This document shows, in pieces, positions 4,046-49,969 of a stretch of DNA of 64,000 bases (position 1 is the stretch's first letter; every line of letters begins with the position of its first letter). Under the pieces are notes generated by a model. It saw nothing but the letters and a program-made list of their open reading frames with translations, searched no databases and was not told the origin of the DNA. The position numbers and the translations under genes were made by a program. Source of the stretch: Sphingobacteriales bacterium (GTDB taxonomy: Bacteria > Bacteroidota > Bacteroidia > Sphingobacteriales > Sphingobacteriaceae); NCBI GenBank assembly GCA_028288165.1, contig JAQBOG010000021.1, forward strand, positions 62,001-126,000, written 5' to 3'.

Positions 4046-5110
4046 TTATGCTGCAGCGTTAAGCTTTTTACGCTTTTGAGCTTTCAAGAAGCTGAGCAAG
4101 ACTTTTTCGTCATGATTTAATCCCTTCTCTCCTATTATATCTTTCGACCTGGAAAGACGTTTAATATAAGGCAGTAATTCACCCGTTTCATAGGCTTCTA
4201 ATAGTGCTGGAAAGACATATGATTTTTTACAAATCGTCCGCGTGTTTCCCAATTTTGCTGCAACATGATCGAGCGCAATGTTGATTATTTTTTTTCGCTT
4301 TAAAATGTTATCAGGATATTCAAATACCGCCAATTCTTTTAACGCATTTAAAGTTCCTGCCCAAGTTCTAAAATCCTTTGCTGTAAAGTCACAGCATGTA
4401 ACTTCCTTGATATAACTATTTATTTTACCAGAATCTATTGAACAACGCTCACCCTGTGGTGTGAAATATTGAAAAAGCTCCTGACCTGGTATATCGCGAC
4501 ACTTCTTTACTAATTTCGCAAGGGTTTTGTCTGTTAAATTGATTTCATGATAAATACCTTTCTTGCCCTTAAAACTTAACTTCAACGCATTCCCATCAAT
4601 CTTTATATGCCTATCTCTTAGTGTGGTTAGGCCATAAGAACCATAGAGTTGTTTATAAGCTTCATTACCAACACGGATAAGTGTTTTTTGCATTATATTT
4701 AGAGATATGGCTAAAACTTTCCGTTCGTCCATATTTTTACGACGAAGGTCTTTTGCTATATTCTTTCTAAATTCCGGAAGTTTGCTACCGAACTCGGCTA
4801 TTCGAAAATATTTGGTTTCATTTCTGGATTTGCTCCAATCAGCGTGGTATCGATATTGTTTACGGCCGGCTTCATCAATACCTGTTGCTTGTAAATGGGA
4901 ATTCGATTTTGGAGAAATCCAAACATCACGCCAAGCTGGGGGAATGGCTAATTTTTTAATTCTTTCCAGATGTTTTGAATCTGTTATTTCATTAGCTTTT
5001 AAATCAAGGAATACAAATCCAGAAACAATTTTCTTACGGGTAAAGCCAGGTGAAGAATTAGTTAAGTAAGTAAGACCAGTTTCGTCTAGTAATTGATTGA
5101 TATCTGTCAT
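4046..5110 (-). CDS. DNA topoisomerase IB (poxvirus/bacterial type)
   Basis: 354 residues. Relaxes supercoiled DNA through a 3'-phosphotyrosyl intermediate without ATP. The N-terminal domain carries IPPAWRDVWISP and GRKQYRYHADW, characteristic of bacterial TopIB. The catalytic set is visible: Arg in LIRVGNEAY, Lys in the LKLSFKGKKG turn, Arg in KDFRTWAGT, and the nucleophilic tyrosine at about residue 298 in CKKSYVFPALLEAY. Length fits the family. It is monocistronic, convergent with the small gene at 3589 and separated from it by a structured repeat. Bacterial TopIB is patchily distributed and non-essential; its role here is not shown by context. Confidence 0.93.
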   Translation of the reverse strand: MTDINQLLDETGLTYLTNSSPGFTRKKIVSGFVFLDLKANEITDSKHLERIKKLAIPPAWRDVWISPKSNSHLQATGIDEAGRKQYRYHADWSKSRNETKYFRIAEFGSKLPEFRKNIAKDLRRKNMDERKVLAISLNIMQKTLIRVGNEAYKQLYGSYGLTTLRDRHIKIDGNALKLSFKGKKGIYHEINLTDKTLAKLVKKCRDIPGQELFQYFTPQGERCSIDSGKINSYIKEVTCCDFTAKDFRTWAGTLNALKELAVFEYPDNILKRKKIINIALDHVAAKLGNTRTICKKSYVFPALLEAYETGELLPYIKRLSRSKDIIGEKGLNHDEKVLLSFLKAQKRKKLNAAA

Positions 5111-5194: not shown

Positions 5195-6298
5195 CTATAA
5201 GAAGAAATTTACAAACTTATAGACCTTTCGATTTTTTGAGCGAATTAAAAACATCAGGACAAAATTGAATAGTATGCAGATTGCAAACAACATACCAATC
5301 AAGAAAAAATTACCAAAATGTCTTAAACTAATAGTAATGAAGAATATAGCGATATTATAGGTTATTAACAGCAAGGTTGTTTGCAAATGGGTTAATCCTA
5401 AAAGTAGCATTTTGTGATGTATATGGTTGTTATCACCAATGAAGGGTGAATTCTTATTGAAGATTCTTATTACAAAAACTCTTATTGCATCATAAATAGG
5501 CCCTATTAATACAGCTACCGAGATAGAAGGTGCAGCATTGTAAAAAACAATATTAACCCCATTAACTTTATTAAGTTCAATAAACTTTAAGCTCAGTATA
5601 GCAGAAATGAAACCGATTAGCAAGGAGCCGGTATCGCCCATAAAAATTTTGGCTGGAGTTAAATTGAAAAATAGGAATCCCCCGCTTGCCCCTACTATAG
5701 AAAATGCAATACAGGCATAAACGGGTTGTTCCATTTGGGTAAACATAACTCCCAAGATCAAACAGACAGTCAAGCCTGTCACCCCTACCAAACCATCAAT
5801 TCCATCTATTAAATTAAACGCGTTGATTATAAACATGATGATAGTAATGGAAATTAACACACTCCATATGTATGGTAGCTCGTAAATGTTCAAAACGCTA
5901 TACATGCTTGTTAATCTAACATCGCCAAGAAAGACCATTATTAACGCAACGATAAATTGCATTGCAAATTTTGTACTTGGATGTACACCAGTCAAGTCAT
6001 CTTTAAGGCCTACAGCAAATAATATAACACAAGATACTAAAAGATAATTAAAAGTTTGAAAATTAGCTGTTTTGGAAAATAATAAAGAGGTAATAATAAA
6101 GCTAAAAAACACTGCAACTCCACCAAGCCTGGAAATACCATATTTATGGTTCTTTCCAACTTTTGAATGATCATCATACAAACCACAGATATTTGCCACA
6201 TGTATTATAGATGGTATTGCTATAACAACAATCAGTAAGGAAAAAAATACTACAATTCCATAATATAGTGGATCATTATTTAATAAGGATTCATACAT
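5195..6298 (-). CDS. WecA/TagO-like undecaprenyl-phosphate sugar-1-phosphate transferase
   Basis: 367 residues with about ten or eleven membrane segments. The family moves a HexNAc-1-phosphate from a UDP-sugar to undecaprenyl phosphate, starting glycan assembly on the inner face of the cytoplasmic membrane. Diagnostic motifs are SRLGG near residue 55, LKDDLTGV, NAFNLIDGIDGLVG, KIFMGDTGSLLIGF and the HIHHK motif typical of the WecA/TagO group rather than MraY. It lies head-out from the OPX/Wzc genes with a GT2 gene between, so it is the likely initiating enzyme for the large glycan locus that follows. The sugar specificity is not determinable from sequence alone. Confidence 0.9.
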   Translation of the reverse strand: MYESLLNNDPLYYGIVVFFSLLIVVIAIPSIIHVANICGLYDDHSKVGKNHKYGISRLGGVAVFFSFIITSLLFSKTANFQTFNYLLVSCVILFAVGLKDDLTGVHPSTKFAMQFIVALIMVFLGDVRLTSMYSVLNIYELPYIWSVLISITIIMFIINAFNLIDGIDGLVGVTGLTVCLILGVMFTQMEQPVYACIAFSIVGASGGFLFFNLTPAKIFMGDTGSLLIGFISAILSLKFIELNKVNGVNIVFYNAAPSISVAVLIGPIYDAIRVFVIRIFNKNSPFIGDNNHIHHKMLLLGLTHLQTTLLLITYNIAIFFITISLRHFGNFFLIGMLFAICILFNFVLMFLIRSKNRKVYKFVNFFL

Positions 6299-6355: not shown

Positions 6356-7099
6356 TTATAAATATTGAATGATTTTTTGGATCGGCTTAAGGATTACAGC
6401 TATATATGGGAACCTAATTCCATTTGCAATCATTGCTTTCAAATCATTGTAACTGGCATTAAGCCTATTTCTTAAAGAATTATTACTAATCCCTCCATCT
6501 CTCATATTTACGACTACTTCATCGAGAAAGGTTGCGGTAGCATTATACTTATATAGAAAGCGCACCATTAACTCGTAATCGGCTGCTGATCCATACTTGA
6601 GTCGGTAGTTCCCATATTTTACAAATAATTCCTTTCGAGCATAGAAAGTTGGGTGAGCAGGCATCCATCCCGCATCGAAAAGATTTTTATCAAAAGGCTT
6701 CGATCGCCATTTTCTGACAACTTTTAACGTATTGTATCGCTTAACATAGTTTAGATTACCATAAAGTATATCCGTTTTATAAGTTGAAAAAGTTTGAGCT
6801 ATTTTTTCGATAACCCTTTCATTTTCCAGGTAATCATCTGCATTTAGGATTCCAATAATATCTCCTGTAGCTAGACTGATTCCCTTATTCATAGCGTCAT
6901 AAATACCTAAATCTGGCTCGATCAACAATTGATTTATATTTTTTCCGAACTTTCGAATAATGTCAATCGTATAATCAGACGATTTTCCATCTACTATTAT
7001 ATATTCTAAATCATTATAAGTCTGACAAATGACTGATTTTATACAGCTCTCTAAAAACTCTTCTGCATTGTAAGTCACAGTAATCAGCGAGATTTTCAT
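6356..7099 (-). CDS. Family 2 glycosyltransferase
   Basis: About 247 residues, GT-A fold. Motifs: SLITVTYNAEEF at the N-terminus, LEYIIVDGKSSDYT, DLGIYDAMNKGISLATG and the metal-binding ILNADDYL, followed by MPAHPTFYARKEL. This is the WcaA-like subgroup common in exopolysaccharide clusters. I prefer the ATG at 7099 (MKISLITV) over an upstream in-frame ATG at 7114, because the family normally starts right at the first beta strand. It lies 57 bases upstream of the WecA-like gene on the same strand and could add the second sugar of the repeat. The donor sugar is unknown. Confidence 0.87.
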   Translation of the reverse strand: MKISLITVTYNAEEFLESCIKSVICQTYNDLEYIIVDGKSSDYTIDIIRKFGKNINQLLIEPDLGIYDAMNKGISLATGDIIGILNADDYLENERVIEKIAQTFSTYKTDILYGNLNYVKRYNTLKVVRKWRSKPFDKNLFDAGWMPAHPTFYARKELFVKYGNYRLKYGSAADYELMVRFLYKYNATATFLDEVVVNMRDGGISNNSLRNRLNASYNDLKAMIANGIRFPYIAVILKPIQKIIQYL

Positions 7100-7142
7100 A
7101 GCACAAGCATACAATTAAATATCAAATTTGTTTTAAATAGTT

Positions 7143-7150
7143 TATTTTTG
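7143..7150 (+). promoter_or_regulatory. Candidate -7 element for the OPX-Wzc operon
   Basis: TATTTTTG fits TAnnTTTG and lies 55 bases before the ATG at 7205, in the divergent intergenic region. The -33 box is not clear. If real, it rules out translation from the TTG at 7148, which lies inside the element. Confidence 0.4.
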
Positions 7151-7204
7151 AAATTGAAAAACATTGTTACAAGCCCCTATCAATGGCATGAATACCTAAG
7201 TCTA

Positions 7205-7987
7205 ATGAAAATTAATTCAAATAAGATCCTGCTTGTCTTTTTATGTATTTACTGCATTTCCGCTTCATCATGCTCAAAACAATATCATAATGCCCTATTT
7301 AAAAGCGAATTGCCTATTAATATAGATACTATAAAAACAATTCATGTCATTAACGATAAAGGTGCTGCTAATGAAAAATATAGAATAAAAGCAAACGATG
7401 CACTGTCTATTAGAAACATTCAAGATGACAGTTTTCTTTCTGCTAGTTCAGGCACTAAAGCAGATGTTGTTAATATCTTTCGTGTTGAAGATGACGGAAC
7501 GGTTATACTGCCGGTTATCAATGCAGTATCAGTAATAGGTCTAACCCGTAAAGAAGCATCAGACAAAATTCAAAGTTTATACAAAAAAAATCTATTAAAA
7601 GACCCTATAATAGAATTGACAGTATTAAATTTAAAGGTTACTTTAATTGGTGAATTTGGTTCACAGGGCAACTTTTTACTTGAAAAAGAAAACACTTCAT
7701 TAATTGACATTTTGGGTATGGCAGGTGGAATATCTGCAAGAGCTAACCCTAAAACATTAAAAATCATTCGTGGTGATCGATCTGATCCTGAAATAATCTA
7801 CGTAAATCTCCGAAATATCAGAAGTCTTGCTAGCCCAAAACTTATACTTCAAAATAACGACATTTTATATATTGAGCCATTACCAATATACAATACTTCT
7901 GAAAGGCTACAAACAATATCTATTGTACTTCAACCAATCCTACTAATAATTAGCTCGGCATTGATACTTATAAATTTTACTAAGTAA
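7205..7987 (+). CDS. Polysaccharide export (OPX, Wza-like) outer-membrane lipoprotein
   Basis: About 260 residues. From the ATG at 7205 the protein opens with a lipoprotein signal peptide, KILLVFLCIYCISASSC, with the lipidated cysteine at the end. It continues with a poly_export domain (KYRIKANDALSIRN then DGTVILPVINAVSVIGLTRKE), one SLBB-type repeat (GEFGSQGNFLLEKENTSLID) and a C-terminal membrane segment near residues 235-255. A TTG at 7148 would add 19 residues before the signal peptide and is less likely. It directly abuts the Wzc-like gene. The pair forms the export channel and inner-membrane co-polymerase of a Wzy- or ABC-type surface polysaccharide system. Confidence 0.9.
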   Translation: MKINSNKILLVFLCIYCISASSCSKQYHNALFKSELPINIDTIKTIHVINDKGAANEKYRIKANDALSIRNIQDDSFLSASSGTKADVVNIFRVEDDGTVILPVINAVSVIGLTRKEASDKIQSLYKKNLLKDPIIELTVLNLKVTLIGEFGSQGNFLLEKENTSLIDILGMAGGISARANPKTLKIIRGDRSDPEIIYVNLRNIRSLASPKLILQNNDILYIEPLPIYNTSERLQTISIVLQPILLIISSALILINFTK

Positions 7988-10405
7988 ATGACAGAAAATT
8001 TATCAGTTGAAAGCAAACTTGCTAAACAGGAAATTGATTATATTAAGATTTTCAAAATTGTGCTTAGTCGATGGTATTGGATTGTCGGCTGCATTTTTAT
8101 TTCCTTTACTTTTTTTCTTATCAAACTATGGTACACCCCACCTGTTTATTCTACCAACGCATCTTTGAAGTTTGATGAGAAAAAGTCAGAGATCTCTGAA
8201 CTTTTAAAGGTTAGCAATTATTATGATAGAACAAATAAAGTTCAATCTGAAACATATGTAATTCAGTCCGAAGCTGTATTGTTACATGCGATATCAAACT
8301 TGGATTATAAAATATCCTACTTTTTAAAGGGTCGCATTCGAAGCACCGAAACTTACCCACAAGTTCCTTATCCTATTGAAATCATTAGTCAAGATACAAG
8401 CGACTTTAACAGAACAGTATTTAGCATCTCAAACGCAGTAAACGGTGGATATATACTAACAACTCTTGTCAACGGAAAAAGCCAAGAGCACCATTACAAT
8501 TTTGATGACACTTTGAAGTATCCCGGTTTGGTGTTTAAAATAAAATCAAGTTCAGCCCCTGATGGATCTTTATATACTTTTAACTTTAACAAAAAAGAAG
8601 ATTTTTTAGGCCGGGTTGCAGGAGGTTTAAGCATGCGGGAAGCAGGAAAAGGATCAAATGTTCTTCTATTAAGCCAAACTGATGTAAATTCTACTTTCTG
8701 TGCAGACATTTTAAATGCAATTGTGAGAGAATATGTCAATTTTGATGCTTCTCAAAGAAGTTTAGCGGCTTCACAAACCATTGAGTTCATTGAGGGACAA
8801 CTAAAATTTTTATCTGATCAAGTAGAACGTACTGGTCAGGCTCTCGAGAATTTCAAGCAGCGCAAGAAACTAGTAGACATTAACACTAGTACTCAATCTA
8901 GCCTCACAAAAATAACACAACAAGAAGCTCAAAAAGATCTTTTAAAGTTTGAGCAAATGGCTATTAGCCAGCTAGAGCAACAAATTCTTAACAACAAAGA
9001 TAAGTTAACATTAAATTTCAATATTGAAGGTTCTTCAGGTGGTTCTCTGAGTACCTTAATCACTCAACTTAATGCACTAAACATCGAGCGAGACCAAAAG
9101 TTGTTGCAATTTAATGTGAATTCAAAGCCAATTCAGCAAATTGATGAACAAATTATTGAACTCAAAAAATCTTTAATCCAAAATGCAAAAACTGCAAAAG
9201 AACGAAACAATAAAACTCTAAGATATATAGAGGCTCAACTTGATCTTGCTCAACAAAACTTAAACACATTACCAAGTGCAGAACGGGATTTTATTCATCT
9301 TCAATCGGATTTCGATATAAACCAAAAGGTTTTCACATACTTATCTGAAAAAAAATTAGAGGCACAGATTAGTAAAGCTGCAGTCATTCCCGGATCTACA
9401 ATCGTAAACTTAGCAGCTCCGGGATGGCAAATCTCTCCTATTCCAGAAAAATTTTATTCATCAGGCCTACTTTTCGGCTTATTGGCGGGCTTAGGGATAA
9501 TCTTCTTAGTGAGGGTTATCAACCCCTATATATATGACAAAGAAACCGTTGAAAATTTGACTAGTACTCCAATAATTGGTATAATCAGAAAGTTTCCAGA
9601 CTATATTGATATAAATAACAGGCAAATTCTATCACTCGAGAAACCAAAATCTATTTTTGCTGAATCAGTAAGATCCGTGAGAACCAATTTAAGTTTCCTG
9701 GCCACAGAGAAAAAAAGTAAGATAATATGCATTACTTCCGAGATAGCAGGGGAAGGTAAATCATTCGTAACAATTAACCTAGCGAGCACCTTAGCCCTAA
9801 TAGAAAAGAAAGTGCTATTAATTGGGGCTGATCTAAGAAGATCGAAACTCCACAAAACTTTCGATGTTGACAATACTAATGGCTTAAGCAAATACCTCTC
9901 AAATCAAGAAGAATTAAGTAACATAATTCTACATACAGACATTGAAAATTTGGACTTTATTCCATCAGGTCCAGTTCCTCCTAATCCCTCAGAATTGCTG
10001 CATACAGATAAAGTTAGGGAGTTGATAAAAGGTCTGACTGATGTTTACGATTTTATTTTGATTGATACAGCACCCGTAGGTTTAGTATCTGATTCTATAC
10101 CTCTTATCCGACAAGCAGACATTAACTTATTTGTCATTCGTTCGGGTGTTTCTAAATTTAATGCAGCATCTATACCTGACCGTATTTCCAAAGAGTATGC
10201 TTTAAATAATGTCGTAGTGGTGTTAAATGCTTTTAGCGATGATACACTTCACAGCAGATATTATTCAACAAATTATTCAAGTAGTTATTCCGCTAGCTCT
10301 TACTATTATTCTGACTATAGTGGATATGCAGGCTCGGGTTATTATACGGAGGATGACAAACCGAAATGGTGGCAGTTCAAACGAAAATTTTTTAAGAAGT
10401 TTTGA
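7988..10405 (+). CDS. Wzc-like tyrosine autokinase / polysaccharide co-polymerase
   Basis: 805 residues. The N-terminal Wzz domain has a first membrane helix near residues 28-48, a long periplasmic part with coiled-coil (about 240-440) and a second helix near 490-510. The cytosolic BY-kinase has Walker A in SEIAGEGKSFVT (about residue 585), Walker A' as VLLIGADLRRSK and Walker B as DFILIDTAPVG. A C-terminal tail dense in tyrosines (about 755-785) is the usual autophosphorylation cluster. It regulates chain length and export with the OPX lipoprotein encoded directly upstream. Its stop overlaps the TTG of the next gene, implying translational coupling with the antiterminator. Confidence 0.95.
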   Translation: MTENLSVESKLAKQEIDYIKIFKIVLSRWYWIVGCIFISFTFFLIKLWYTPPVYSTNASLKFDEKKSEISELLKVSNYYDRTNKVQSETYVIQSEAVLLHAISNLDYKISYFLKGRIRSTETYPQVPYPIEIISQDTSDFNRTVFSISNAVNGGYILTTLVNGKSQEHHYNFDDTLKYPGLVFKIKSSSAPDGSLYTFNFNKKEDFLGRVAGGLSMREAGKGSNVLLLSQTDVNSTFCADILNAIVREYVNFDASQRSLAASQTIEFIEGQLKFLSDQVERTGQALENFKQRKKLVDINTSTQSSLTKITQQEAQKDLLKFEQMAISQLEQQILNNKDKLTLNFNIEGSSGGSLSTLITQLNALNIERDQKLLQFNVNSKPIQQIDEQIIELKKSLIQNAKTAKERNNKTLRYIEAQLDLAQQNLNTLPSAERDFIHLQSDFDINQKVFTYLSEKKLEAQISKAAVIPGSTIVNLAAPGWQISPIPEKFYSSGLLFGLLAGLGIIFLVRVINPYIYDKETVENLTSTPIIGIIRKFPDYIDINNRQILSLEKPKSIFAESVRSVRTNLSFLATEKKSKIICITSEIAGEGKSFVTINLASTLALIEKKVLLIGADLRRSKLHKTFDVDNTNGLSKYLSNQEELSNIILHTDIENLDFIPSGPVPPNPSELLHTDKVRELIKGLTDVYDFILIDTAPVGLVSDSIPLIRQADINLFVIRSGVSKFNAASIPDRISKEYALNNVVVVLNAFSDDTLHSRYYSTNYSSSYSASSYYYSDYSGYAGSGYYTEDDKPKWWQFKRKFFKKF

Positions 10406-10905
10406 TAAAAGAACAAGTTAAATGGTATCCAGTTTATACCAATCCAAGAGCTGAAAAAAAAGCATTCGATTTGTTGACGCAAAAAGGCATTGAATGTTAT
10501 TTACCATTATATAGACAACAAAAGCAATGGAGCGACCGTAAAAAGTGGGTTAACGAACCATTGATAAAGTCATATGTATTCGTGAACATTGCGGCTTCTC
10601 AAATTACAGAAGTACTTATGACTAATGGCGTATGCAGATTCTTATATTTTTCTGGTAAAATCGCATCAATGCCAGATAAACAAATTGAACAATTGAAATT
10701 ATTATTGGCTAGTGAATCGGAATTAGAGGTGTTAGACCACCACTTTACCAAAGGAGAACTGGTAAAAATTATTGCAGGGCCATTGCAAGGTCTAATTGGG
10801 GAATTAATTGAATTCCAAACACAAAAAAGATTATTGATAAAAATTGAGCATGTGGGTCAATCTGTACTTGTTAAAATTAACTCAATATTTACAGAGCCCT
10901 TTTAA
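10402..10905 (+). CDS. NusG-like transcription antiterminator (UpxY/LoaP-like)
   Basis: 167 residues. An N-terminal NGN domain begins at VKWYPVYTNPRAEKKA, followed by IECYLPLYRQQKQWSDRKK and PLIKSYVFV, then a KOW motif around GPLQGLIGELIE near the C-terminus. Specialised NusG paralogues of this kind sit at the head of polysaccharide operons and bind paused RNA polymerase to read through long operons. It starts with TTG overlapping the Wzc stop by 4 bases and is followed by a 212-base untranslated stretch and then over 30 co-oriented glycan genes. It is too diverged and too locus-specific to be the housekeeping NusG. Role in this operon is inferred from context. Confidence 0.9.
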   Translation: MIKEQVKWYPVYTNPRAEKKAFDLLTQKGIECYLPLYRQQKQWSDRKKWVNEPLIKSYVFVNIAASQITEVLMTNGVCRFLYFSGKIASMPDKQIEQLKLLLASESELEVLDHHFTKGELVKIIAGPLQGLIGELIEFQTQKRLLIKIEHVGQSVLVKINSIFTEPF

Positions 10906-45306: not shown

Positions 45307-46656
45307 GTGCTTAATGGTGATCCGATAATTTCTTATTTAATAGCTTGGCTAGGCTCTTTTTATATTTTATTTGTTACAATAACTGGCCAGATAAAACCGG
45401 TTCCGAGTGACATGGATTTTGGTGATCAATTAATGCGTCCGTTGTTTTTAAATCAAATCATTTTTGCTGGATATATGTGCTGTACGTCTATCTTTTATTT
45501 TTTAGATGTATTGGGTTATGTGAATTTTATAACACCATCGCAAAGTTATATTGCAGATTTAAATCAGTTACAACTAGTTGCACAATGCCAGAGATACTAC
45601 TGTTTAGGGCATGCAGCTTTCGTAACGGGTATTCTATTATTTATGAAATATCCAATCAAACATGTATATAGTATAGAGAAAAGAGATATAGCTAACTTAC
45701 TTTTAACTATAGCTTTAGTAAGCTTACCAACATCTTTATTATTCCGTGCTCTTCCCGGACTTTCACAATTTTACATTCAATTAAGTTCTTTAAGTTTTAT
45801 TGCAGGAACACTGGCTCTCGCATTTGCTATTCCCATGAAAAAGCCAGGTAATACTTTAATTTGTTCAATTCTTTACATTTCTAATGTTTCTGCTGCCCTA
45901 TTATCTGGATTTAAAGAGCCTATTATTATTAGTGTTTTAGTTTTAGGCGTGTTTTTATACCCAACTTATAAAAAAGTAGTACTCGTCATATTTGTTCCTG
46001 CCATTTTTGTCTTATTTATGTTATTACCTACTTATAACAGAATTTTTCGAGAAAAAGCATGGTCTGGGGAAACAAGTACAGAAGATGCATCGGAAATAGC
46101 ATTTGATGCAGTAACCGCTAAAGCTTTTTCAGATGACGAAGACACTTCAGACTGGGGGTTTCTAACCGGTCGGCTGAGTGAAATTGGTATGTTTACGCAA
46201 TTTGTAGCTTCCACTCCTGAAAAAATAGACTACTATGGCTTTCAAATTGTTGAACAAGCGATCTCTGTAATCATTCCTCGTGTATTTTGGCCTGAAAAAC
46301 CAAGTACAGAACAAATGATTATGGAACGTGTATATAATGCTGGTGTAATAAATAGACAATCTATTGTATCCGCCAAGCCCCCTTTTATTGTGGATGGTTA
46401 TCTTTCTGGAGGAAATATTGGTGTATTCTTGTCATTACTAATATATGGAGCTGCAGCACAATTGATTTCATTAAAAGCGGAAAAGTTATTTGGTGGTTAT
46501 TTACTGGGAGCCGCATTAATCTATTCAGGGCTATTTCAGGTATTATGGCGAGGGATTAGCTTTGAATTTGTTACTAATTCTGTGTTTTGGAGCTTTATAA
46601 CAATGTTAATTATATCTAGAGCTTTCCGCTCAATAGGTATTCTTAAGCCTATATAA
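45307..46656 (+). CDS. Wzy-like oligosaccharide repeat-unit polymerase (exosortase-associated type)
   Basis: 449 residues with about eleven hydrophobic segments and a large polar loop near 240-310 (around EKAWSGETSTEDASEI and GFLTGRLSEIGMFTQFV), followed by VIIPRVFWPEKPSTEQM and SAKPPFIVDGYLSGG. Layout matches O-antigen polymerases that link repeat units in the periplasm. The start is uncertain: a GTG at 45307 is the first standard start, but the frame stays open upstream to 45238 and encodes a hydrophobic YLLLYVPWILSLV stretch with no ATG, GTG or TTG. The exosortase gene two positions downstream suggests the exosortase-linked Wzy-like group. Confidence 0.75.
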   Translation: MLNGDPIISYLIAWLGSFYILFVTITGQIKPVPSDMDFGDQLMRPLFLNQIIFAGYMCCTSIFYFLDVLGYVNFITPSQSYIADLNQLQLVAQCQRYYCLGHAAFVTGILLFMKYPIKHVYSIEKRDIANLLLTIALVSLPTSLLFRALPGLSQFYIQLSSLSFIAGTLALAFAIPMKKPGNTLICSILYISNVSAALLSGFKEPIIISVLVLGVFLYPTYKKVVLVIFVPAIFVLFMLLPTYNRIFREKAWSGETSTEDASEIAFDAVTAKAFSDDEDTSDWGFLTGRLSEIGMFTQFVASTPEKIDYYGFQIVEQAISVIIPRVFWPEKPSTEQMIMERVYNAGVINRQSIVSAKPPFIVDGYLSGGNIGVFLSLLIYGAAAQLISLKAEKLFGGYLLGAALIYSGLFQVLWRGISFEFVTNSVFWSFITMLIISRAFRSIGILKPI

Positions 46657-46676: not shown

Positions 46677-47870
46677 TTGCGCATCCTCCAAATCAACGCT
46701 TCCTACAAACCCGCCTATATATATGGCGGTCCAACTATGTCTGTTTCAAAATTATGCGAGGAACTGGTTAAGGTCGGACAAAGCATAGAGGTTTTAACTA
46801 CAACCGCGAATGGAGAAAAAGAATTGAATGTCAACCCTAATGAAAAGCAACTTGTAAACGGGGTTCCTGTTACTTATTTCAAGCGTGTAACCAAAGATCA
46901 CACACACTTTTCCCCGGCATTACTAACAAAACTTTACAAAGAAATAAATAATAGAAAAGAAATCCGAATTCAAGAGTCTCATAACCCACAACCCACAACT
47001 CACAACTTTATCATCCACATACATGCATGGTGGAACTTTGTCTCAGTATTATCTTGTTTAATAGCAGTTCTCACTAAAAGTGTAATTCTTTTATCCCCAA
47101 GAGGAACATTAAGTAGTTACTCTTTTGGTAATAGGAATGGGATTTTAAAAAAACTGTTTCACTTTTTAATTGGGAAACCACTTTTAGAAAAATGCCATTT
47201 TCATGTGACAAGCGAAAAAGAAAAAGCAGCAATGCTAATCCTCTGCAACCCTAAAAGCATCACTGTGATTGCTAATTTTGTAAGATTTCCTATCGAAGAT
47301 CATAAAAGTATAAAGGAAGAATCCGATCCCATAAATCTTATTTTCATGTCACGAATCGAAGAAAAAAAAGGACTACCTACTTTATTCGAATCTCTCTCTT
47401 GTCTTGAAATTCCCTATTTCTTAACCATAGCCGGAAATGGTGAAAAGAAATATGTAGAACAACTTAAACAACTTTGTATTGATTTAAACATTAGCCAAAA
47501 TATTAATTGGATAGGTCATATTGCTGATGATAAAAAATTTAAGCTACTTAGTGAGCATGACTTATTTGTTCTTCCCTCTCACGATGAAAATTTTGCAAAT
47601 GTAGTAATTGAATCCCTATCAGTGGGCACAGCAGTACTACTAAGTGAAAATGTCGGGCTAGCGGACTATGTTACAGAAAATGAGTTCGGCTGGACTTGTG
47701 TTAATCAACCTGCTGAATATAAACAACACTTAGAATATTGTTATAAAAACAAACCTATTTTACAAAACATTCGTAAAAAAGCACCAAAAAAGATCAGAGA
47801 AGATTTTAGTGATAGTGCGTTAATAACAAAATACATAGACATGTATAATAAAGTACTGACTTCTCATTGA
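46677..47870 (+). CDS. Family 4 glycosyltransferase (exosortase-locus type)
   Basis: 397 residues from a TTG start (RILQINASYKPAYIYGGPTM, a distinctive opening for this GT4 group). HIHAWWNFVSVL and LLSPRGTLSSYSFGNRN lie in the first domain. The donor domain has LIFMSRIEEKKGLPTLFESL, YFLTIAGNGEKKYVEQLKQL and the E-x7-E in ENFANVVIESLSVG. The stretch around 46970-47000 is locally repetitive (HNPQPTTHN). It lies between the Wzy-like and exosortase genes' block, where an associated GT4 is commonly found. Specificity unknown. Confidence 0.88.
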   Translation: MRILQINASYKPAYIYGGPTMSVSKLCEELVKVGQSIEVLTTTANGEKELNVNPNEKQLVNGVPVTYFKRVTKDHTHFSPALLTKLYKEINNRKEIRIQESHNPQPTTHNFIIHIHAWWNFVSVLSCLIAVLTKSVILLSPRGTLSSYSFGNRNGILKKLFHFLIGKPLLEKCHFHVTSEKEKAAMLILCNPKSITVIANFVRFPIEDHKSIKEESDPINLIFMSRIEEKKGLPTLFESLSCLEIPYFLTIAGNGEKKYVEQLKQLCIDLNISQNINWIGHIADDKKFKLLSEHDLFVLPSHDENFANVVIESLSVGTAVLLSENVGLADYVTENEFGWTCVNQPAEYKQHLEYCYKNKPILQNIRKKAPKKIREDFSDSALITKYIDMYNKVLTSH

Positions 47871-47893: not shown

Positions 47894-48766
47894 TTGAAAC
47901 AGTTTTCTTTTATCATACTCACTTTCAATGAAGAAAAACATCTTCAAAGATTATTAGATTCAATAAATACTCTTGATGCATCCATATTTGTTTTGGATTC
48001 TGGAAGTATTGATAAAACCTTAAATATTTGCGAAATCAATAATATTCAAGTTGCATACAATAAGTTTGAAAACCATCCCAAACAATGGGATACTGCTTTA
48101 AAGAAATTCCCTATAAACACACCTTGGGTGATCGGCTTAGATGCCGATCAAATTGTGACACCAGAACTTTTGCTGCTATTGCAGAACTTTAAGGATGAAG
48201 ATTTTCGAGGAATAAATGGCATATATTTTAACCGAAAGAATTATTTTAAAGGAAATTGGATAAGGTTCGGTGGATACTATCCAAAATATCTACTAAAAAT
48301 GTTTCGTTACGGGGTTGGATATTCAGATCTGAATGAAAATATGGATCACCGATTCATTGCTCCAGGAAAGACCGTTATTTGGAAACAAGGACATATCTTA
48401 GAAGAGAATTTAAAAGAAAATAATATTAGTTTTTGGATCGATAAGCACAACCGATACAGTGACTTATTGGCTCATGAAGAACTAGAACGTATTAATAAAG
48501 TTCGTTCTCAATCAATAAGCCCGTTTTTTTGGGGCAGTCCTGATGAAAGAACTGCATGGTTAAAACGGTTATGGTGGAATTTGCCGAGATTTATACGTCC
48601 CTTTTTATATTTCATTTATAGATTAATTTTTCAACTTGGAATATTAGATGGTAAAACAGGAATCTTATTCCACTTTTTACAAGGATTTTGGTTCCGGGTT
48701 ATTGTTGATGTAAAATTGGCGGAATTGCTAAAACAAGAATCAGTTCAAAAAACAAGTACTAGGTAA
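47894..48766 (+). CDS. Family 2 glycosyltransferase (WaaE/KdtX-like)
   Basis: 290 residues, TTG start (KQFSFIILTFNEEKHLQRLL). IFVLDSGSIDKTLNIC and PWVIGLDADQIVTPEL carry the donor and metal sites, and the short first motif with NEE is typical of the LPS-core type GT2 group. The central GNWIRFGGYYPKYLLKMFR and the C-terminal hydrophobic FIYRLIFQLGILDGKTG and FHFLQGFWFRVIVD indicate membrane contact. It is directly upstream of the exosortase gene. Acceptor is probably the lipid-linked glycan. Confidence 0.87.
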   Translation: MKQFSFIILTFNEEKHLQRLLDSINTLDASIFVLDSGSIDKTLNICEINNIQVAYNKFENHPKQWDTALKKFPINTPWVIGLDADQIVTPELLLLLQNFKDEDFRGINGIYFNRKNYFKGNWIRFGGYYPKYLLKMFRYGVGYSDLNENMDHRFIAPGKTVIWKQGHILEENLKENNISFWIDKHNRYSDLLAHEELERINKVRSQSISPFFWGSPDERTAWLKRLWWNLPRFIRPFLYFIYRLIFQLGILDGKTGILFHFLQGFWFRVIVDVKLAELLKQESVQKTSTR

Positions 48767-48778
48767 GTTATTTACGAA

Positions 48779-49360
48779 TTGAAATGTATGCTAAATAGAT
48801 TATCAGAATATTTTGACAAAAATCCCATTCATCGTTTTGTATTGGTTTTTTTAAGTACTTATATCTTTCTCGATTATTTCTCAGTATTTTATATGGGGAT
48901 CACTTCTCCTGGTAATTACTACAGTAACTTCTTGGATAACCATTTAAATTATGTTAGAGGCTTAAGGCATTTCCTGATATCTTCTACAGCAAGCATATTA
49001 CAACATTGGGGATATAACGTGACAACTACAGATACCATGTTACATGCTTATAATGTGGGTGGATTCAACATTGTTTATTCTTGCCTCGGATTTGGATTAA
49101 TGAGTTTTTTTCTTGCTTTTGTAATTGCATATCCAAAGCCATTAAAAAGTAAATTAATTTTTGGGCTTGTTGGCTTAATAACAATTCAAATACTTAATAT
49201 TTTAAGACTGTTATTAATTACTCTTTACTGGACAAAATCAGTATTTGCAGGAAGGATCAACCATCATACGCTATTTAACGTGCTTTTATACATAATTTTA
49301 TTATTCACAATTATCATCTGGGTTAATTGGAGGGATAAAACACCTGGGACTCGACAATGA
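48779..49360 (+). CDS. Exosortase family membrane protease/transpeptidase
   Basis: 193 residues, about five or six membrane helices. The three catalytic-type positions are all present: Cys102 in VYSCLGFGLMSF, Arg143 in QILNILRLLLI and His162/His163 in GRINHHTLFNVLL, in the order and spacing of exosortases. The protein is short, as in the single-domain Bacteroidota groups, and lacks the C-terminal EpsI domain. The TTG at 48779 and the ATG at 48788 are both possible starts. Exosortases cleave C-terminal sorting signals and are thought to attach proteins to a surface glycan. No protein with such a signal is encoded in the window. Neighbours suggest the Wzy-associated group. Confidence 0.88.
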   Translation: MKCMLNRLSEYFDKNPIHRFVLVFLSTYIFLDYFSVFYMGITSPGNYYSNFLDNHLNYVRGLRHFLISSTASILQHWGYNVTTTDTMLHAYNVGGFNIVYSCLGFGLMSFFLAFVIAYPKPLKSKLIFGLVGLITIQILNILRLLLITLYWTKSVFAGRINHHTLFNVLLYIILLFTIIIWVNWRDKTPGTRQ

Positions 49361-49411: not shown

Positions 49412-49969
49412 GTGAATAAAATTCAGCTAAACAAAAAGTTTAACACAAACCACTATAACCCTGAAGGTTCATTATTGAAACAATTGCTATGGTATTTTAT
49501 CAGTGCTTTTTTGTTTCGTTCTGGAATTATCCCTTTTAGTAGTGTGTTAGTTTTTATTCTTAGAACCTTCGGTGCTAAGATTGGAAAAGACGTTCGCATT
49601 AAACCCTACATTAATGTAAAGTATCCTTGGAAACTTATTGTGGGAGACCACACATGGATTGGTGAACATTGTGCGATCGAGAATCTAGCATTGGTCAGTT
49701 TGGGCAAAAATGTGTGCCTCTCTCAATATTCCATGTTATTAACAGGTAATCATAATTATAAAAAGACAACTTTTGACTTGATTATTTCACCCATAATAAT
49801 TGAAGAGGGCGTTTGGATTGGAGCAAAAGCAGTAGTTTGCCCAGGGGTTAGAGCTTGTTCTCATGCTATGCTAACAGTTGGCTCAATAATTACTAACAAT
49901 ATGGAGCCTTACTCAATATATTCAGGTAATCCTGCAATTAAAATTCGAAATAGAGAGGTTGCAGTTTAA
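49412..49969 (+). CDS. WcaF-like acetyltransferase (left-handed beta-helix)
   Basis: 185 residues, GTG start. An N-terminal hydrophobic segment (LLWYFISAFLFRSGIIPF) precedes a hexapeptide-repeat domain: IGKDVRIKPYINVKYPWKLIVG (shortened), HTWIGEHCAIENLA, GKNVCLSQYSMLLTGNHNY with the catalytic-type histidine, then IIIEEGVWIGAKAVVCPGV and YSGNPAIKIR. This is the WcaF group that O-acetylates exopolysaccharide sugars from acetyl-CoA. It is the last gene of the glycan locus; a 262-base gap with an AT-rich palindrome follows before mdh. Confidence 0.9.
   Translation: MNKIQLNKKFNTNHYNPEGSLLKQLLWYFISAFLFRSGIIPFSSVLVFILRTFGAKIGKDVRIKPYINVKYPWKLIVGDHTWIGEHCAIENLALVSLGKNVCLSQYSMLLTGNHNYKKTTFDLIISPIIIEEGVWIGAKAVVCPGVRACSHAMLTVGSIITNNMEPYSIYSGNPAIKIRNREVAV

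Follow-up and report, generated by a model that had tools for sequence, protein, structure and literature searches.

A catalogued exosortase Y at the end of a large glycan locus, and candidate small secreted substrates encoded outside it beside T9SS cargo genes

Introduction

What does an exosortase act on when it is encoded at the end of a large glycan locus and no protein with a sorting signal is visible around it? The question is raised by a stretch of 64,000 nucleotides from a Sphingobacteriales bacterium (contig JAQBOG010000021.1, positions 62,001 to 126,000; hereafter the window), in which an exosortase gene lies at 48779..49360 on the forward strand. An earlier note, made from the letters of the window, found no sorting substrate there and proposed either that substrates are encoded elsewhere or that the enzyme has an unusual target, possibly the glycan-protein junction itself. 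Below, genomes, contigs and loci carry our own G, C and L numbers; the genome of the window is G000.

Results

The protein encoded at 48779..49360 (+) is 193 aa long, has a TTG start, and scores 179.1 bits against the NCBIfam model of exosortase Y (XrtY), NF046083 (cut-off 160). The TIGR04178 superfamily signature is also present (45.5 bits, cut-off 23), while the score against Pfam PF09721 (22.6 bits) lies under the gathering cut-off of 25.7. Scores against the XrtX model NF046081 (63.3 bits, cut-off 170) and the XrtF model TIGR04128 (54.4 bits, cut-off 90) place the enzyme in the XrtY subgroup and not with XrtX or XrtF. Cys102, Arg143 and His162/163, the residues that the earlier note had singled out, are at those positions and are invariant in an alignment of 18 sequences that includes the window protein. 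An AF2 model was obtained with pLDDT 90.0 and pTM 0.81; judged by its helices and by loop charges, the catalytic residues would lie at the periplasmic face. A PDB sequence search with XrtY found nothing, Foldseek comparison of the model with the PDB gave nothing at E ≤ 0.001 (best E 1.7), and a search of viral contigs found no XrtY relatives.

Upstream of XrtY, on the same strand, are a Wzy-like polymerase (45307..46656; NF046084, 696.7 bits, cut-off 420), the GT4 glycosyltransferase XYAG1 (46677..47870; NF046085, 575.3 bits, cut-off 400) and, directly before the exosortase gene, a GT2 glycosyltransferase (47894..48766; PF00535). A WcaF-family O-acetyltransferase (49412..49969, +; NF007797, 216.4 bits, cut-off 192) is the final gene of the locus. 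The polymerase, the GT4 and the acetyltransferase had been named as neighbours before, and each of these labels holds at its NCBIfam cut-off. Because the cut-offs of NF046083, NF046084 and NF046085 are all passed, the XrtY of the window is, at the level of sequence, a genuine member of a catalogued exosortase family with its catalogued partners adjoining. In three other loci (L031, L033 and L044) a NodU-type carbamoyltransferase stands after XrtY in place of WcaF; it is 574 aa long in L031 and L033 and truncated in L044, where the contig ends.

A GT2 of about 290 residues is found beside the exosortase, or fused to it, in 18 of the 21 loci compared (19 relatives, the locus of a second exosortase of the own genome, and the window). 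Among the 134 XrtY matches listed, the open frame around XrtY is 464-514 residues long in 28, and GT2-XrtY fusions were seen in L034, L037 and L040, the three of these 28 long-frame genomes that were read (one HMM-checked). Given such fusion-length frames, the glycan-protein junction, the second of the two proposals made earlier, may still be a target of XrtY.

The window was then considered for substrates. A scan for the PID motif gave no sorting substrate. When all ORFs of 55 aa or more were scanned without any motif for a helix and basic tail at the C-terminus, six frames came up (XrtY itself, four longer membrane-protein-like frames and one of 57 aa that lies antisense to the Wzy gene), none of which was taken as a substrate. 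Three substrate profiles searched over the genome had no match on C32, the contig of the window. The earlier statement that the window lacks a sorting substrate is therefore upheld by all three approaches.

Elsewhere in the own genome, a draft of 3.69 Mb in 42 contigs, two candidates, 'VPLDGNVIFLITAAIAIGVYEIRKKK' and 'APLDSWVPVIVIGAAVIGAYYLHTNKK', were found on contig C29 (G000:C29:97167 and C29:208167). The genome is only 68.6% complete, so further substrates may be missing. On reading, the candidate frames share one plan: behind a signal peptide (called by a simple rule, not by SignalP) and a short central part stands P-[IL]-D, and a hydrophobic segment and basic tail complete the protein. 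For C29:97167 no ATG is within reach, so translation must begin at another codon; this frame was picked up in the own genome by profile A1, built from 17 PID-CTERM tails. Against A3, a profile widened to 35 tails of which both candidates are members, the two score 42.5 and 41.0 bits; Pro and Asp are invariant in A3, partly because its rows were chosen on the motif. Both candidates fall outside the curated PID_CTERM model NF046080: the 208167 candidate (as C29:208170) scores 25.4 bits with a cut-off of 26, and C29:97167 is not reported at E ≤ 0.1. The two C29 proteins are, on this sequence evidence, most likely the substrates of the window XrtY in its own genome.

XrtY (E ≤ 1e-20) and the A3 signal (E ≤ 0.001) were searched in the same 301 genomes of the family and were present in 132 and 133 of them, respectively: 124 genomes have both, 8 XrtY alone, 9 the signal alone and 160 neither. 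A conserved C-terminal signal that co-occurs with the enzyme across genomes, as the earlier note had envisaged, is thus present, and far from being consistently absent from genomes with the enzyme it occurs in 124 of 132. In the subset of 246 genomes first met in the family-wide XrtY search, the corresponding numbers are 105, 8, 6 and 127. The small protein of G309 is that of L167, an A3 row, and removal of this genome leaves 104, 8, 6 and 127 (Fisher p 4e-51, a value that overstates independence, since related genomes are treated as independent); L187 also gave an A3 row, and its genome may be among the 246. Within the own genus, A3 matches 5 of 5 XrtY genomes and 0 of 13 without XrtY (at least 90% complete), the five having themselves supplied A3 rows. 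With the curated NF046080, the cut-off is passed in 4 of the 5 same-genus genomes that have XrtY and in none of the 15 that lack it; the own genome is positive only through a protein on contig C31 (see Discussion), and G006 is the one without a match. In the 15 same-genus genomes without XrtY, no exosortase match was found at E ≤ 0.01.

Four of the eight XrtY-only genomes (G183, G189, G264 and G270) hold weaker forms of the signal on reading, and the other four (G142, G176, G207 and G318; 4 of the 132 XrtY genomes) have no readable signal. Six of the nine signal-only genomes have another exosortase; in the remaining three (G052, G171 and G216) an exosortase was looked for and none was found. 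One of these, G052 (93% complete), carries a T9SS cargo gene and a small-protein gene as a cassette (L096). Together with the C29 candidates, this tracking of XrtY by the signal across the family supports the first part of the earlier interpretation, namely that substrates are encoded elsewhere; the part concerning an unusual target stands as described above.

Substrate genes are usually not adjacent to XrtY, since only 2 of 80 named XrtY loci, taken with flanks of up to 10 kb, gave true candidates (L167 and L187). Two other candidates from these 80 loci were false. A PID-motif scan of 20 loci and the window gave one true match, beside the second exosortase; one further match was false. Linkage over longer distances was counted from 150 A3 matches listed; they come from 106 genomes, of which 99 have XrtY. 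By these matches, 28 of the 99 XrtY genomes have a substrate gene no more than 80 kb from XrtY, upstream in 26 and, of these, divergent in 24, at about 25-63 kb; in the other 71, no substrate gene was found within 80 kb among the matches listed. Eight of the 24 were read (G020, G032, G037, G053, G129, G132, G155 and G225, the last from position and map), and in all eight the substrate gene is at the head of the glycan locus, either next to the Wza gene or separated from it by one cargo gene. The complete locus of G132 runs from WcaF, XrtY and GT2 through about 34 kb that hold glycosyltransferase genes and genes without a label to Wzc and Wza, past which a T9SS cargo gene, a small-protein gene and the GT2 and WecA-like genes follow divergently.

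The head of the window locus is built in the same way. A Wza-like polysaccharide export protein (7148..7987, +; PF02563), homologous to those at the heads of relatives' XrtY glycan loci, is followed by a Wzc-like chain-length protein with an AAA domain (7988..10405, +; PF02706 and PF13614; 46-55% identity to the proteins of five relatives), a NusG-like antiterminator (10402..10905, +; PF02357), AsnB (11118) and a GT4 (12916). On the other side and in the opposite orientation are a GT2 (6356..7114, -; PF00535; 44-49% identity to L088, L089, L138 and L142) and a WecA-like sugar-phosphate transferase (5195..6298, -; PF00953; 44-54% identity to L089, L138 and L142). A type IB DNA topoisomerase gene (4046-5110, -) adjoins the latter. 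When gene maps of relatives are compared with the window coordinates, L088, L089, L138 and L142 hold substrate genes, and L088 and L089 also T9SS cargo genes, in the slot that corresponds to 7115..7147. In the window this slot is 33 bp long and empty, and the candidates are on C29 instead, which is why none was seen by the earlier note.

The loci L138, L142, L266 and L267 carry, at the head of a Pedobacter-type glycan locus, tandem genes for cysteine-rich secreted proteins of about 120-190 aa. Many of these end in C-P-[IL]-D-[DN]-Y, and some are missed by PID_CTERM (no match in G053). These tandem substrates are larger, and no T9SS cargo gene adjoins them.

Most short substrates have a large T9SS cargo gene directly upstream. 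We compiled 80 distinct signal-bearing proteins from the loci examined, XrtY- and XrtX-type pooled, and took as upstream neighbour an ORF on the same strand, 200 aa or longer, that ends between 160 bp inside and 600 bp before the substrate frame. Such a neighbour was found for 53 of the 80. The last 130 residues of these neighbours match TIGR04183 in 46 of 53 and PF18962 in 43 of 53 cases (E ≤ 0.01), as compared with at most 3 of 80 and 3 of 80, respectively, among control ORFs of the same loci. The controls were 80 of 147 other ORFs (one true neighbour was omitted), and they include at least two additional cargo genes from these loci (L083:6626 and L132:2102). Among the 27 substrate proteins without an upstream neighbour, 13 are mostly larger proteins (L092, L095, L117, L138, L142 and L238), several others are near a locus end, and four face, head-to-head, a T9SS cargo gene of the opposite strand (L093, L234, L247 and L249, the last three read with more flank as L261-L263). 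In XrtX-type loci, ten upstream tails scanned singly all match TIGR04183 at E ≤ 0.01, six of them over the cut-off.

The own genome has nine T9SS-A matches. Two are directly upstream of the two small C29 genes, and a third is the next large gene past one of them. Cargo proteins that were read have about 600-2500 residues and T9SS type A tails. Pfam analysis of six found the T9SS tail in all six, a laminin-G-like domain in one and YDG and MBG domains in another (over cut-offs); the others of the six gave borderline matches at most. Most short candidate substrates are, by sequence, encoded beside T9SS cargo genes.

A predicted mature part was obtained for 77 of the 80 substrate proteins with a simple signal peptidase site rule, not SignalP. 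In 62 of the 77 it is short (at most 46 residues; median 21.5, range 3-46), and the remaining 15 have 57-105 residues. Exactly two cysteines are present in 43 of the 62 short parts and none in 9; pooled, the 62 contain 20.6% Pro, 14.1% Asp and 1.3% Lys+Arg. Short substrates would therefore mature to peptides of about 20 residues rich in Pro and Asp.

Discussion

We propose that XrtY is a dedicated exosortase for small secreted proteins with PID/PLD-type signals, encoded outside the window, and that its product, placed on a glycoconjugate, serves T9SS cargo; we regard this as probable. Support at the sequence level comes from family membership, the catalytic residues, co-occurrence, linkage in some relatives, GT2 fusions and T9SS adjacency; cleavage, acceptor and T9SS coupling are what we infer from them. 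A small substrate would enter the periplasm via its signal peptide, with its C-terminal helix keeping it in the inner membrane. Cys102 would attack it near P-[IL]-D, forming a thioester, and the freed C-terminus would be passed on to an acceptor, glycan or lipid, that the linked glycosyltransferases provide. The result would be a surface glycoconjugate carrying a short, acidic, Pro-rich peptide, usually with two cysteines. This product may serve the T9SS cargo encoded with it; it could, for instance, tether a giant adhesin to the polysaccharide.

A more specific version would couple two sorting systems: XrtY and the sometimes fused GT2 would load the two-cysteine peptide of about 20 residues onto the polysaccharide of the locus, and this tag would capture the adjoining giant T9SS adhesin, by disulfide or non-covalently, thereby locking adhesins into the capsule. 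We put this forward tentatively and think it more doubtful than probable. The idea of a role for the twin cysteines of the small proteins is drawn by analogy from SprF, where, in the part of the source drawn on here, which deals with matters other than exosortases, twin cysteines in the tail are described as forming disulfides with GldK (PMC12635249).

The strongest competitor to conjugation is that XrtY cleaves only, the small proteins being precursors of a free secreted, signal- or pheromone-like peptide that is joined to neither glycan nor lipid. The short predicted mature parts fit this, as do the 1 to 6 A3 matches per positive genome. However, the large glycan loci linked in part of the genomes and the GT2-XrtY fusions suggest a glycan role, and conjugation is the reported outcome for ArtA, an archaeal relative of the exosortases. 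We therefore consider a cleavage-only enzyme unlikely.

The own genome encodes a second exosortase, at G000:C31:16334, with 115 bits to XrtY and 64 to XrtX, below both cut-offs. Between its gene and a GT2 gene is a gene for a 77-aa PID-CTERM protein that scores 26.9-27.5 bits against NF046080, over the cut-off of 26. This operon (GT2, 77-aa PID-CTERM protein, exosortase and glycan genes) is at 9708-11706 of L050 (G000:C31:6600-26500), and a large T9SS-tailed protein (open frame of 2800 aa) is encoded downstream of it, at C31:3719. The C29 proteins could accordingly belong to the C31 exosortase, leaving the window XrtY with another, unseen target. The C31 enzyme, however, already has an adjacent candidate of its own, and four genomes of the same genus with a single XrtY/XrtX-model match (G005, G006, G013 and G015) carry C29-like small proteins by T9SS cargo genes, which makes this assignment very improbable. 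Least credible of all is that the target of XrtY is the T9SS cargo or the glycan, with the small proteins as regulators or adaptors: substrate genes do adjoin T9SS cargo genes, but the C-termini of the cargo proteins read are T9SS type A tails, not a helix and basic tail, and it is the small proteins that carry the three-part signal.

The proposal that XrtY sorts small secreted proteins bears on the wider question of exosortase substrates in Bacteroidota. Here there are short, easily tagged candidates, a motif and a genetic partner, the T9SS cargo gene, so that experiments in cultured strains of Pedobacter, Mucilaginibacter or Daejeonella can now address it. Should the T9SS link prove functional, two routes of surface display that have been treated as separate would be one. 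In the open-licence literature, we found no paper on XrtY or PID-CTERM, none on the two-cysteine micro-peptides or on T9SS cargo adjacency, and, among the papers listed, none that joins exosortase substrates to T9SS cargo genes. The enzyme family is already known and PID-CTERM already exists as a model name; with the parts catalogued as models and no paper found on either, the description of the system as incompletely described was a fair one.

Compared with the catalogued XrtY system (NF046083, NF046084 and NF046085), the window shows no difference: it passes all three models, with the genes close together. What is added here, as judged against model names alone, is the pairing with substrates, the fusion to GT2 and the link to T9SS; NCBI notes may already state part of the pairing. 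XrtX and PID-CTERM (NF046081 and NF046080) involve the same short type of substrate. In many XrtX genomes at most a few hundred bases separate the small gene from that of the enzyme, whereas most XrtY substrates are encoded tens of kb from XrtY or on a different contig, and their motif is looser (PLDGG, PLDTW, CPLDDY). In XrtX-type loci of other families (L054-L079), many but not all small proteins have 'PCWPPPC', nearly constant, immediately before P-I-D-G-G.

In the PEP-CTERM system substrates tend to be numerous and large, whereas the XrtY candidates are few and mostly micro-peptides. The PEP-CTERM/EpsH (XrtA) system resembles XrtY in having an exosortase in an exopolysaccharide locus and a three-part C-terminal signal, as outlined in the portion of the source used here (PMC7468200). 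XrtF of Flavobacterium johnsoniae is needed for surface colonisation and biofilm formation, and its loss strongly reduces biofilm and abolishes zorbs; its substrates are left to future work in the sections of that paper considered here (PMC10936215). Like XrtY it is a Bacteroidota exosortase, and it differs by model, the window XrtY being under the TIGR04128 cut-off. XrtF is over its cut-off in 13 genomes of the phylum; in two of these, NF046080 has no match (G081) or a partial, weak one (G074).

PorU is the sortase that acts in T9SS C-terminal processing and A-LPS attachment in Porphyromonas. T9SS cargo of this genus is joined to sugar at its C-terminus, at the cell surface, according to the portion of the same source cited above (PMC7468200). 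PorU is unrelated to XrtY, and whereas the cargo is what is processed there, the T9SS cargo gene in the XrtY system is the neighbour of the candidate substrate gene, not the substrate.
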